A stretch of 64,000 bases of DNA from Labilibaculum manganireducens (lineage in GTDB: Bacteria > Bacteroidota > Bacteroidia > Bacteroidales > Marinifilaceae). The notes beneath the pieces are model-generated. The model was not told the origin of the DNA. It was given only the letters and a program-made list of their open reading frames with translations, and did not search any database. Positions within the stretch are counted from its first letter, which is position 1, and each line of letters begins with the position of its first letter. Shown piece after piece: positions 12,483 to 53,901 of the stretch. Location: contig NZ_MVDE01000020.1 of the NCBI RefSeq assembly GCF_002843385.1, positions 1-64,000 on the forward strand. The letters run 5' to 3'. The translations under genes and the position numbers were made by a program.

Positions 12483-12571
12483 ATGCAACGAGCCATGAGA
12501 AGACTTTTTTCGCACACGAGGATGGCTAAGCTGGCGAGTTCCATGTGGCAATAAAAAAACAAATTAGACAA
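12483..12571 (+). repeat. 89-bp repeat unit, copy upstream of marC
   Basis: A unit running from ATGCAAC (12483) to the ATGAAAG that is the marC start (12572), spacing 89 bp. It aligns by eye with the insert in the glyoxalase gene: CCATG, CACAC.GAG.GATG, GTTCCATGTGGCA and an A-rich tail. It contains a possible 23-codon open frame beginning MQRAMRRLFSHTR that stops inside the unit. This is a diverged member of the family also found at 14836, 51011 and 53795. Confidence 0.5.
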
Positions 12572-13180
12572 ATGAAAGAATTAATTAACACCATACTATT
12601 GTTAATTGCAGTGATAGACCCTTTGGGTTCGATTCCTGTTTATTTAGAAGCAACCAAGCATTTTGACAAAATACATAAGAGAAAAATTGCAATTAATGCT
12701 TCAATAACAGCTTTTTTAGTCCTTTTATTTTTTATTGTTGTTGGTCAGATTATACTTGAGGGCATGGATATTACCCTTGAAGCCTTTCAAATTTCGGGTG
12801 GCGTGATTCTATTTCTATTTGCTCTTACAATGATATTTGGTGAAGGAAAACCAGAATCTGAGAAACACTTAATAAAAGATTACAAACATGTAACCGTTTT
12901 TCCTGTTGCAGTTCCTTCAATAGCCTCACCTGGTGCTATAATGGCAGTTGTATTGCTAACTGATAATCATATTTATTCATTAAACCAACAAGTTACTACG
13001 ACATTAATGCTTTTGATTGTGGTTACAATTACATGTATTTTACTGCTTGCATCAAATTTCATTCACAAGAGAATAGGAGAATCCGGAATTATTGTGATTA
13101 GTAAAATTATGGGCTTGATTTTGGCATCATACGCAGCGCAAAGTATTTTGAGTGGAGTAAAAGAGTTTTTTATGAATTAA
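12572..13180 (+). CDS. MarC family integral membrane protein
   Basis: About 202 residues with six predicted membrane helices. The family signature IDPLGSIPVYLE lies near the N-terminus, and VPSIASPGAIMAVVLL and IMGLILASYAAQSILSGV follow. MarC/YhcE proteins are inner-membrane proteins of unknown transport role. The ATG at 12572 is preferred over a GTG nine codons upstream (12545), because family members start a few residues before the first helix and the upstream codons lie within an 89-bp repeat unit whose copies elsewhere also end at ATGAAA. Confidence 0.9.
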   Translation: MKELINTILLLIAVIDPLGSIPVYLEATKHFDKIHKRKIAINASITAFLVLLFFIVVGQIILEGMDITLEAFQISGGVILFLFALTMIFGEGKPESEKHLIKDYKHVTVFPVAVPSIASPGAIMAVVLLTDNHIYSLNQQVTTTLMLLIVVTITCILLLASNFIHKRIGESGIIVISKIMGLILASYAAQSILSGVKEFFMN

Positions 13181-14737: not shown

Positions 14738-15243
14738 ATGCAAAATTTAAAGAAAATAGATTCGGAAACCAATATTTTAACTTGGTTTGAGATACCCGTT
14801 ACTAATACAGGGAGAGCAAAAACGTTTTATGAAACGTCCATGCCAAAGCGATTTTGACACACAGGGAGATGATTATATGGTAAGTTCCATATGACAAAAA
14901 CTTAAAATTATAATCATATGAAACAATTCTGGATATTAAAATGACTACCCGCATTTTTCCAGAGACTAATGAAGAACTGACTTTTTTTCCTTATAATCCA
15001 GATGTTATTCAGGCAACATCCGGAAGGGTTACAGGCGTTCTGACTAAATCAGATACAAATACACCTTCAAATTGTGGAGCACTTATTTATATCAATACAA
15101 GTCCAGAAATTCAACTCATATTGGATAAAGTTGAGAAAGCTGGAGGTAAAATACTGGAACCTAAGACTTCAATGCCTTTTGGATTTATTGCTGTAATTGT
15201 TGATTCTGAAGGAAACAGAATAGGACTTCATTCAGAGAAGTAA
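14738..15243 (+). pseudogene. Glyoxalase/VOC family protein split by an 89-bp insertion
   Basis: The first part (14738-14835) reads ILTWFEIPVTNTGRAKTFYE, the opening of a vicinal-oxygen-chelate domain. The second part (14925-15243) continues ILDIKMTTRIFPET through to IAVIVDSEGNRIGLHSEK. Removing bases 14836-14924 restores one uninterrupted frame of 138 residues across the joint (FYET-ILDIKM), so the gene was intact before the insertion. The insert is flanked by an 8-bp direct repeat TATGAAAC. The 3' part still has an ATG at 14941 but would lack the first metal-binding strand. VOC proteins are small metal enzymes or drug-binding proteins. Confidence 0.85.
14836..14924 (+). repeat. 89-bp mobile-like repeat inserted in the VOC gene
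   Basis: The insert begins GTCCATGCCAAAGCGATTTT and ends with the second TATGAAAC. It matches the minus strand of 51101-51196 closely: the first 20 bases are identical, and GACA.ACAGG.AGATGATTAT and AAGTTCCAT.TGAC follow. A small hairpin ATATGG-TAAGTT-CCATAT lies in it, as does a 9-bp inverted repeat ATGATTATA/TATAATCAT. From the preceding ATGAAAC there is a 21-codon open frame (MKRPCQSDFDTQGDDYMVSSI with a stop after it). Ends are not inverted repeats. Confidence 0.8.
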
Positions 15244-49910: not shown

Positions 49911-51017
49911 TTACTCCAATCTGATTTTAAACTTTTTGACGCTAAGACCAATAAATCCAGCAGTCATTCCAATAAGAATTAAGGTTTCTTTCCAAACAAA
50001 TTCAAATCCGGCTCCCTTTAACATGATATTTTTGATGATTACAATGAACCATCGTGGTGGAATAATATGACTGATTATTTGCAGAGGTACAGGCATATTC
50101 CGTAAAGGGAAAATGAAACCTGAAAGCAAAATTGTTGGCAGCATTAATGCAAACATAGAAAGCATCATAGCAACCTGCTGACTGTCCGAAACGGTTGAAA
50201 TAAAGATTCCTAAAGAAAGAGCCATCAAAATAAACAAAAGACTCTCTGCCATAAGTAAGGCGAAACTACCCAAAACCGGAACTCCAAATACAAAATAGCC
50301 CATTCCGACAATTACCAAAGCATTAATAAACGACAAAAACAGATAAGGAGTAACTTTCCCTAAGATGATTTGCAAAGGACGCAATGGCGAAACCAGCAAA
50401 ATCTCCATGGTTCCCATTTCCTTTTCACGTGCAATAGATATAGAAGTCATCATGGCAGAAACCAACATTAAAATTGTGGCCATAATTCCCGGAACAAACA
50501 TGTAAACACTCTCCATGTTGGGATTAAAATACATTCTTGTCTGGGGTGTGATTTGACTGGGAACTATCTTTCCTCTATTAATTTCCAGATTGTAATTTTG
50601 AAGAATTCCCTGAAGATAATTCACCTCTAAACTTGCCATATTCGGTTCCGAAGCATCAGTCAATATTTGCACCGAAGCTTTTGATCCTTTAATCAGATTT
50701 TGTCCAAAATCAGGCTCAAACACCAAAACCAGCTTCGTTTCTCCTTTTCGGAAAAGCTCATCTACCTGTGCAATGCCATCCAGATTCTTAACAAGTTTAA
50801 AATAGCCCGAAGAGGTTATCTTATTAATGATTTCAGATGTATATTCATCTTTAGAATGATCAACAACAGCCATTTTAACATCTTTAAGGTCGTTGGTGAT
50901 AACAAAACCAAAAAGCAGCAACTGCACAATGGGCATTCCAAATAATATCAGCATCGATCTTTTATCGCGAAAAATGTGATAGAATTCTTTTTTCAGGAAA
51001 CCAATAAATCGTTTCAT
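49911..51017 (-). CDS. ABC-2 type transporter permease (YbhS/YbhR-like)
   Basis: A 368-residue permease with the same plan: N-terminal helix (MLILFGMPIVQLLLFGFVI), a periplasmic domain to about residue 170, and five C-terminal helices containing IAREKEMGTMEILLVSPLRPLQIILGK. It starts with ATGAAAC at 51017, which is also the border of a tandem array of 90-96 bp repeat units that fills the space to the ATPase gene. Being inside the operon, it should be cotranscribed with the ATPases, but the 220-base repeat-filled gap may affect its expression. Confidence 0.92.
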   Translation of the reverse strand: MKRFIGFLKKEFYHIFRDKRSMLILFGMPIVQLLLFGFVITNDLKDVKMAVVDHSKDEYTSEIINKITSSGYFKLVKNLDGIAQVDELFRKGETKLVLVFEPDFGQNLIKGSKASVQILTDASEPNMASLEVNYLQGILQNYNLEINRGKIVPSQITPQTRMYFNPNMESVYMFVPGIMATILMLVSAMMTSISIAREKEMGTMEILLVSPLRPLQIILGKVTPYLFLSFINALVIVGMGYFVFGVPVLGSFALLMAESLLFILMALSLGIFISTVSDSQQVAMMLSMFALMLPTILLSGFIFPLRNMPVPLQIISHIIPPRWFIVIIKNIMLKGAGFEFVWKETLILIGMTAGFIGLSVKKFKIRLE

Positions 51018-51217
51018 GTGTTTATAATTTGATTTTTATTTGTCACATGGAACACCCAAATTGCAACCATATCCCTCTGTGTAAAGCCTTTTAAATGGGT
51101 GTTTCATCTCTTTATATTTTTTATTTTATGGTCAGATGGAACTTTCCATACTGGAATAATCATCTTCCTGTTTGTCAAAATCGCTTTGGCATGGACGTTT
51201 CATCTCTTTATATTTTT
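51011..51217 (-). repeat. Tandem array of 90- and 96-bp repeat units before the permease gene
   Basis: GTTTCAT (ATGAAAC on the minus strand) occurs at 51011, 51101 and 51197, giving one unit of 90 bp, one of 96 bp and a partial third of 21 bp identical to the start of the second. The 96-bp unit is the closest relative of the insert at 14836-14924. Both units share GTTCCAT.TGAC and an A-rich tail before the next ATGAAAC. Each holds a 23-codon open frame (MKRPCQSDFDKQEDDYSS..., MKHPFKRLYTEGYGCNLG...). The last border is the permease start codon. Confidence 0.75.
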
Positions 51218-52909: not shown

Positions 52910-53794
52910 CTATTTTAATCTAATTTCACCCGGCATTCCAATCTTCAAACGTCCGTCATTTACCACCTTAACCTTTACAGCATAAACCAATTTCACACGC
53001 TCTTTTTTTGTTTGGATAATTTTGGGTGTAAATTCAGATTGGGAAGAAATCCAGATTACTTTCCCCTGAAGTATTTCATTCTCCTCTTTATTTTTATCAA
53101 TCAACACCTTCACTTCTTGACCGATTTTAACCTCTGAAAGCTGATCGCCACTAATATAAACCCGTAAATCCAGCGTACTTAAATCGGCTAGTTTAAATAG
53201 TGGTGTTCCTGCGTTCACCATTTCATAAGCTTCATGATATTTTTCCAAAACCGTAGCGGTCTCTGGCACATATATCTTACTTTTCTCAATTAAATCGTTT
53301 AAGGATTCAATTCTCCGATCGAAACTTTCCAGCTCTCCCAAAACCTTGGCATTCTCCGTTTTAACCGCTTGTATTTGCTTCTGAGCAAGCAAAACTCCAC
53401 CATTAACATCATCAACATCTTTGCTGGTTGCTGCGCCGTCTGCAAACATTTTATCAATTCTCGATTTATCTTTTTCAAGGATAGAAATCTGTTCCTGATA
53501 AACCGCGATACGAGAAAGGATATTCTTCACGCCTGATGCCACAGCTGACTTTTGCGCTTTTAACTGCTCTCTTTGCAGATACAACTGAGTGGTATCAATA
53601 ATTCCAACTTGTTTTGCCTCTGAGAAAACATCTCCCTCATTTACATCAAGAGCAAGTATCTTACCGCTGTTTTCAGCTGAAATCATATACTCTGTAGCCT
53701 CAAAATTTCCAAAAGCATCCGAATCGGCTTCATTTTGATTGCAGCCAAAAGCAAAGAAAAGAATGGCTGCTCCTATAATTGTTGTTAATTTCAT
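52910..53794 (-). CDS. HlyD family membrane fusion protein (YbhG-like)
   Basis: A 294-residue periplasmic adaptor. The lipobox is in LFFAFGCNQN (Cys about 18), so it is a lipoprotein on the inner membrane. A lipoyl half (NSGKILALDVNEGDVFS) leads into a long coiled-coil hairpin (residues ~70-170), the second lipoyl half (KIYVPETATVLEKYHEAYEMVNAGTP), then a beta-barrel. It bridges the ABC permeases and TolC. Immediately upstream lies a degenerate member of the 90-bp repeat family ending at its ATGAAA start. Confidence 0.93.
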   Translation of the reverse strand: MKLTTIIGAAILFFAFGCNQNEADSDAFGNFEATEYMISAENSGKILALDVNEGDVFSEAKQVGIIDTTQLYLQREQLKAQKSAVASGVKNILSRIAVYQEQISILEKDKSRIDKMFADGAATSKDVDDVNGGVLLAQKQIQAVKTENAKVLGELESFDRRIESLNDLIEKSKIYVPETATVLEKYHEAYEMVNAGTPLFKLADLSTLDLRVYISGDQLSEVKIGQEVKVLIDKNKEENEILQGKVIWISSQSEFTPKIIQTKKERVKLVYAVKVKVVNDGRLKIGMPGEIRLK

Positions 53795-53884
53795 CTGTTT
53801 TATAATTTGTTTTTTAACTGCTATATGGAACTTGCTGTGAATAAATAATCACTTTTGTATGTGAGCTAATAATTATTTAATCAT
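53795..53884 (-). repeat. Degenerate 90-bp repeat unit before the HlyD gene
   Basis: On the minus strand the unit runs from ATGATTA (53884) to the HlyD start ATGAAAT (53794), spacing 90 bp. The half nearest the gene matches the other units: AAGTTCCATATAGCA, an A-rich run and AAATTATAAAACAG, compared with AAATTATAAACAC before the permease start. The distal half is weakly similar and its open frame stops after three codons. Confidence 0.45.
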
Positions 53885-53901
53885 GCAAATTTTATTGATA
53901 T

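Follow-up and report, generated by a model that had tools for sequence, protein, structure and literature searches.

Integron attC sites and gene-less cassettes combine an imperfect hairpin between inverted boxes (RYYYAAC ... GTTRRRY) with tandem units and direct-repeat borders, and IS200/IS605 elements favour one strand at the replication fork. According to the accessible portion of one account of the IS200/IS605 family, guides located 5′ of each palindrome select the cleavage sites by complementarity; the same portion calls the spread of REP-like sequences unresolved (PMC8266576). The transmission of TAACTGA heptamer repeats is likewise given as unexplained in the part of their description available to us (PMC4679880). 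Here we compare these systems with a family of repeat units found in the window, by which we mean the whole 64 kb stretch of DNA that was analysed, and in related genomes.

Five repeat units had been reported in an earlier sequence-only reading, and all of them were found, three in the reverse direction. A sequence-only model built from 31 units (alignment A1, which holds 31 of 32 units, one identical row being omitted) gave exactly five unit matches in the window at E ≤ 1, with E-values of 3.7e-26 to 7.4e-9: 12483-12576 (+), 14829-14922 (+), 51103-51198 (−), 51013-51101 (−) and 53790-53891 (−). Four of the five units were already in the model's alignment, and the match at 53790 is the only independent one. 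The units have a direction, which had previously been missed: those at 12483 and 14829 read on the plus strand, the tandem pair and the copy at 53795 on the minus strand. The units had also been located correctly, although in mixed registers, and the proposed heptamer boundary has to be replaced by a common core of five bases, ATGAA. Elements are measured here from the start of the left ATGAAAC through the base preceding the right ATGAA. The ends are direct repeats, as described; an inner inverted copy, GTTCCATnTG, had been overlooked, and it can pair with both the left heptamer and the right CAnATGAA. The arrangement of two units in tandem was borne out at 51203-51018 (−). The features of the window are:

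51108-51203, minus strand: unit A, upstream member of the tandem pair, 96 nt, model match, left ATGAAAC at 51203-51197
51133-51142, minus strand: inner inverted copy of unit A, GTTCCATCTG
51018-51107, minus strand: unit B, 90 nt, the other member of the tandem pair, model match, left ATGAAAC at 51107-51101
51044-51053, minus strand: inner inverted copy of unit B, GTTCCATGTG
51013-51017, minus strand: right ATGAA closing the tandem pair, at which a 368-codon gene starts (MKRFIGFLKKEFYHIF...), which we take to encode an ABC-type permease
12483-12571, plus strand: unit of 89 nt, model match, left ATGCAAC, inner copy GTTCCATGTG at 12538-12547
12572-12576, plus strand: right ATGAA of this unit, start codon of a 202-codon membrane protein gene, presumably MarC-like
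14829-14917, plus strand: unit of 89 nt within a VOC-like gene starting at 14738, inner copy GTTCCATATG at 14884-14893
14918-14922, plus strand: right ATGAA of this unit, with a frame of only 8 codons
53795-53891, minus strand: decayed unit, model match, left ATGAAAC lost, inner copy GTTCCATATA at 53822-53831
53790-53794, minus strand: right ATGAA of the decayed unit, start codon of a 294-codon gene, assumed to be HlyD-like

The copy at 14829 is not at a start codon and, judging from the reading frames, probably breaks the VOC-like gene. Among the matches listed for nine genomes of the genus, none extends over the VOC part beyond the unit, and none is an orthologous locus. The copy at 53795 is a decayed one, since units at the same site in two relatives (G006 and G007) have an intact left end.

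Units share a fixed order: ATGAAAC, a stem-loop with a variable interior, GTTCCATnTG, a tail rich in A (about 20-25 bases), and CAnATGAA, in which the ATG as a rule starts the following gene. Their length is about 88-98 nt, with a long subtype of about 110-122 nt. The inner GTTCCAT, an inverted copy of both ends, is exact in 100 of 116 rows. The base n of CATnTG is complementary to the n of CAnATG in 95 of 115 units, against 45.1 expected if the two were independent; the pairs are A-T (54), C-G (29) and G-C (12), the first two of which turn up repeatedly in different species. For the named structure the covariation score is 0.105, compared with 0.050 ± 0.004 for shuffled and 0.007-0.049 for slid controls, a measure that overstates independence because its cells count sequences rather than events and the units are related. 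In the inner stem 78% of cells are paired, and both-side changes occur at four of six pairs. When the left ATGAAAC is paired with the inner GTTCCAT, one A-C mismatch remains on the gene strand; on the opposite strand this is a G-T pair. For both strands the folding energies lie only a little below those of shuffles (mean z of −1.4 and −1.2 as RNA, −0.3 and −0.7 as DNA), and Rfam at gathering score gave no match across the whole window. We rejected a small conserved peptide starting at the left ATG (MKRPC..., open in some subtypes), as stops and frames vary between subtypes and species.

Two variants were observed. The long subtype carries an extra hairpin, CTCCCGAAACAAGTTCGGGA or TTCCGAAAGCTTTCGGAA, within the inner GTTCCAT and has spread with the unit in many copies (loci L012, L013, L014, L018, L024, L025 and others; for example L046, 624-741). 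In Alkalitalea saponilacus a far shorter unit (L072, 5075-5175) of the form ATGAAACGAGTCC-loop-GGGACGAGTTCCATTTG consists of stem, inner copy, tail and right end only.

With the kind of sequence model that the sequence-only reading had called for, further copies were found in abundance: the own genome holds at least 149 matches, a lower bound because these come from only 150 scored candidates (E ≤ 0.001). The 186-base tandem pair is present in at least 45 places of this genome, and a strict right-end pattern matches 59 times, against two for the reversed control pattern. Copies in relatives, also anticipated, were recovered with stricter filters by model matches in 27 of the 59 genomes of the kinship set (own genome included), and the tandem pair as a plain DNA query was found in 29 of the 59. 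A pattern scan of named genomes returned 23 stretches, all titled Bacteroidota and including Labilibaculum and Alkalitalea. Two stretches of IMG/VR match the unit; plasmid and phage records gave no unit match. In genomes of this type ATGAAA is commonly preceded by A-rich leaders, and the short inner motif GTTCCATNTGNCAA, two mismatches being allowed, shows no enrichment in the window (10 occurrences, 8.5 expected), so that the motif alone would have missed the family. Both observations could suggest a chance likeness among A-rich leaders preceding ATGAAA genes. This explanation is already refuted, and we give it practically no credence, by the at least 149 model matches, the spread over 27 of 59 genomes, and the filled and empty orthologous sites described below. 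The unit family is far beyond chance.

After omission of seven of the 149 matches, which stop short of the right end, the remaining 142 form 114 arrays, comprising 89 single, 22 double and three triple ones. Ten of the arrays are without sequence. Among the 104 that were read, ATGAA terminates 102; 87 run into at least 100 codons or are still open where the examined sequence ends, three run into 60-99 codons and 14 into fewer, the VOC copy of the window being one of these. In the 74 testable arrays (13 of the 87 were dropped as their left end was not recognised), at most 30 in-frame open codons lie upstream in 70, with a median of six and at least 60 in one. These short upstream frames indicate that the testable insertion points are gene starts and not in-frame insertions within genes. 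ATGAA occurs 315 times on both strands of the window, 24 times at starts, 39 times in intergenic sequence and 252 times inside genes. Excluding within-gene sites, the excess at starts remains large (87/104 vs 24/63, p about 2e-21), relative to a null from one window only with genes called as long open frames. Part of the bias is explained by selection against insertions within genes. The genes that apparently lie downstream vary widely in kind. Landing at start codons in this way, the unit keeps the gene intact and supplies its own A-rich leader. In our reading the A-rich tail, which ends before the ATG, acts as a working leader, so that insertions at start codons are tolerated.

Evidence for mobility comes from the comparison of 16 sites, namely 14 own-genome sites and the window sites at 12483 and 53795. 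The 14 were set against the orthologous gene starts of G002, G006 and G007 where these were found, with G004 added for two; L020 was compared with G007 only. Empty sites with a single end motif, as expected for small mobile units, were found at nine of the 16 orthologous sites in at least one genome of the same genus. In a filled site two copies of ATGAA enclose the unit, and an empty site has one. The empty sites, with the genomes in which they are empty, are:

L015: G002, G006, G007
L020: G007
L021: G004, G007
L022: G002, G006, G007
L031: G002
L034: G002, G006
L039: G007
window 51011-51203: G004, G006
window 12483: G007

At L015 the empty sequence is AAAATATGAATATTTG and the filled one AAAATATGAAAC...AAACATATGAATATTTG; at window 12483 the empty site of G007 is GAATAATATGAAAGAATT. 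At six of the 16 sites the relatives examined carry one or more units. L035 was not judged empty, its upstream flank being unalignable, G002 was counted neither way at the tandem site of the window, and the 53795 site had no alignable counterpart from G002 and G004.

The number of units at a site also varies. The tandem site of the window holds two units in the own genome, one in G007 and none in G006 or G004. None of the outcomes that the sequence-only reading had named as refuting was observed. Unit A is absent from G006, G004 and G007; the subtype of unit B is present at this site in G007 and missing from G006 and G004. At L013 and L037 one to three units are found per site across genomes, in steps of whole units. 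Genome-wide copies, relatives and empty sites together support the proposal of small mobile units, and the boundaries fit insertion beside a five-base ATGAA target; recombination of the units at the heptamer, as first suggested, is a conjecture. Neither a circle nor an excision event was observed. That the unit is mobile and uses ATGAA as its target is, taken jointly, a claim we hold with very high confidence. By eye, the contig start just upstream of the double unit at L015 (positions 1-160, G000:C63) resembles the terminal part of a group II intron reverse transcriptase.

Placement at start codons, a start codon within the right hairpin and conserved pairing could also mark the unit chiefly as a cis-regulatory leader, once mobile and then kept because its two hairpins would control downstream translation. 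Copies common to several species, such as L010 in G002, G006 and G007, are in line with this. The same genes, however, have empty sites in close relatives, Rfam gives no match, the apparent downstream genes are diverse, and the pairing base adjoins the insertion edge, which a transposition model explains as well. We consider such a primarily regulatory role rather improbable.

We propose instead that these are non-autonomous units inserting directly before ATGAA, mainly at the start codons of genes, and moved in trans by a candidate Y1 enzyme, a reading to which we give an even chance. A Y1 HUH-type enzyme would act in trans on the strand opposite the downstream gene, where the order is TTCAT / nTG - tail - CAnATGGAAC - hairpin - GTTTCAT / (slashes mark the ends of the unit). 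A single ATGGAA guide, directly 5′ of the hairpin, would pair with the target TTCAT and with the unit's own TTTCAT. One cutting rule would thus serve both ends; the unit would leave as single-stranded DNA and enter 3′ of another TTCAT, a position immediately ahead of ATGAA when read on the gene strand. A single guide acting at both ends would account for the five bases that target and unit end have in common. Drawn by analogy with IS200/IS605, the guide mechanism may be right or wrong with roughly equal probability.

Two other routes of movement have to be weighed. Through a tyrosine-type, integron-like recombinase, a possibly folded circle carrying an ATGAAAC core would recombine with a chromosomal ATGAA. 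Direct repeats on both sides, an imperfect hairpin with a conserved mismatch and units gained and lost at one site are compatible with such a process, and repeated integration would yield tandem arrays like the 22 double and three triple ones among the 114. Against it, the attC boxes are matched at AAC/GTT only, and 89 of the 114 arrays are single and scattered rather than collected in one array; we regard the recombinase as unlikely. Similarly doubtful is an enzyme of another kind, either a DDE transposase needing no end repeats or RNA-based copying, with ATGAA as a fixed-sequence target duplication. ATGAA does stand on both sides, and the enzyme is only at the candidate stage, but terminal inverted repeats are absent, the target sequence is fixed, and DDE_Tnp_1 tracks the unit less well than Y1 does.

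This last comparison rests on co-occurrence. Y1 genes are present in 25 of 27 unit carriers and 14 of 32 non-carriers (within the family, 18/20 vs 2/15), and the DDE_Tnp_1 control in 21 of 27 and 18 of 32 (16/20 vs 6/15). Co-occurrence with the unit is thus higher for Y1 than for DDE_Tnp_1, in figures on which genome size acts as a confounder (Spearman 0.61 between copy number and size) and which come from relatives that are not independent. Two genomes, G022 and G032, have two and one unit matches, respectively, without Y1. The unit was found in two of 48 Y1 loci, 0.4-0.9 kb from the gene, no more than its estimated general density. Linkage of Y1 genes to the unit as its carriers is unsupported, and we keep them as candidates acting in trans. 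No Y1 group spans all 11 sampled carrier genomes, in each of which part of the Y1 genes was sampled. TnpB was found in none of nine genomes of the genus, and no gene-bearing copy was seen among 13 odd or partial copies with 160 bases read upstream. Replication-fork bias was absent among the arrays listed, 25 of 56 and 34 of 75 being co-oriented with the terminus assumed opposite dnaA.

The Y1 loci and the DDE genes have features of their own. The 40 Y1 loci L089-L128, from G000 and relatives, lie amid short repeats, a different set for each gene; in 22 of these 40 loci, and in none of 23 window tiles of 2.7 kb, a 14-mer occurs at least three times. By eye the Y1 genes are mostly of the Y---Q--HH type, which corresponds to subclass 1.2 in the available portion of PMC6006769, where this subclass is given without REPs. 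G007, a complete genome of the same genus, has 14 copies of a single DDE transposase with equal scores (E 1.1e-15 each), a recent IS expansion; G008 has a single DDE_Tnp_1 match.

Our search found no earlier description of the unit family in the open-access literature, with subscription papers outside its scope. Taken as a whole, the picture would be that of a minimal transposon homing to start codons: gene-less, with one guide reading both its own end and the target ATGAA, mobilised in trans by a single-strand enzyme that the host encodes, spread through an order of Bacteroidota, and the source of a fresh translation leader for dozens to a hundred genes in each genome. This full picture is tentative, and we rate it somewhat below an even chance. 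If true, units that land on start codons and spare the gene would continually supply new 5′ leaders and changes in expression. A single guide with a covarying base would also offer a simple, testable model of how REP-like sequences spread, and the question can be tested directly in close relatives, whose sites may be empty, single or double.

Among known systems, TAACTGA heptamer repeats also lie just upstream of the start codons of unrelated genes, in some Bacteroidetes as well; as far as the accessible text of their description goes, they consist of tandem heptamers only, without a 90-nt unit or hairpin order, and unlike for our unit, empty sites are not among the reported features (PMC4679880). 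On the evidence of that text, they are the closest report of start-codon repeats and otherwise different (PMC4679880). MITEs share with the unit a short, gene-less and dispersed form with a short repeat on both sides. The side repeat of the unit, in contrast, is always the same five bases, and MITE identity was rejected because terminal inverted repeats are absent: the left end reads ACGTCC..., the right ...AAACAnATGAA, with direct repeats. Integron attC sites and gene-less cassettes resemble the unit in having an imperfect hairpin between inverted boxes and tandem units with direct-repeat borders, whereas unit copies are scattered singly and their target is a start codon. As ATGAAAC and GTTCCAT (the latter in 100 of 116 rows) fit the boxes at AAC and GTT only, attC identity was rejected too.

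REP and REPIN sequences with their RAYT / TnpAREP enzymes are, in the sections of the sources available to us, short gene-less hairpins, many per genome and mostly intergenic, sometimes in tandem, and E. coli REPs have a conserved stem mismatch as the unit does (PMC3116915; PMC3733652; PMC8266576). The unit differs in being directional and bound to ATGAA start codons. We rejected REP/REPIN identity, since the unit alignments show ATGAAAC...GTTCCATnTG with neither a GTAG-type foot nor an inverted doublet, and in the 48 Y1 loci the units do not flank a RAYT gene, other short repeats being found there.

Finally, IS200/IS605 elements, in what could be consulted of two descriptions, have a guide-like sequence 5′ of a hairpin and complementary to both end sites, as well as a fixed short target beside one end, and no classical inverted ends (PMC8266576; PMC6006769). 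The unit likewise has a fixed short target and no classical inverted ends, and on the strand opposite the gene its layout, with base covariation in 95 of 115 units, would fit such a guide. Insertion beside a fixed short target is evident here from ATGAA at 102 of 104 arrays and its single copy in empty sites. Unlike these elements, the unit has no transposase gene, would use a single hairpin and a single guide at both ends, has a target copy on both sides, shows no fork bias and occurs in a genus with no TnpB in nine genomes. We do not file it in IS200/IS605, because no relative carrying a transposase turned up among the copies and loci examined and a preference at the fork was lacking among the arrays listed. 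By analogy, the unit appears to work most like a minimal IS200/IS605-type element.
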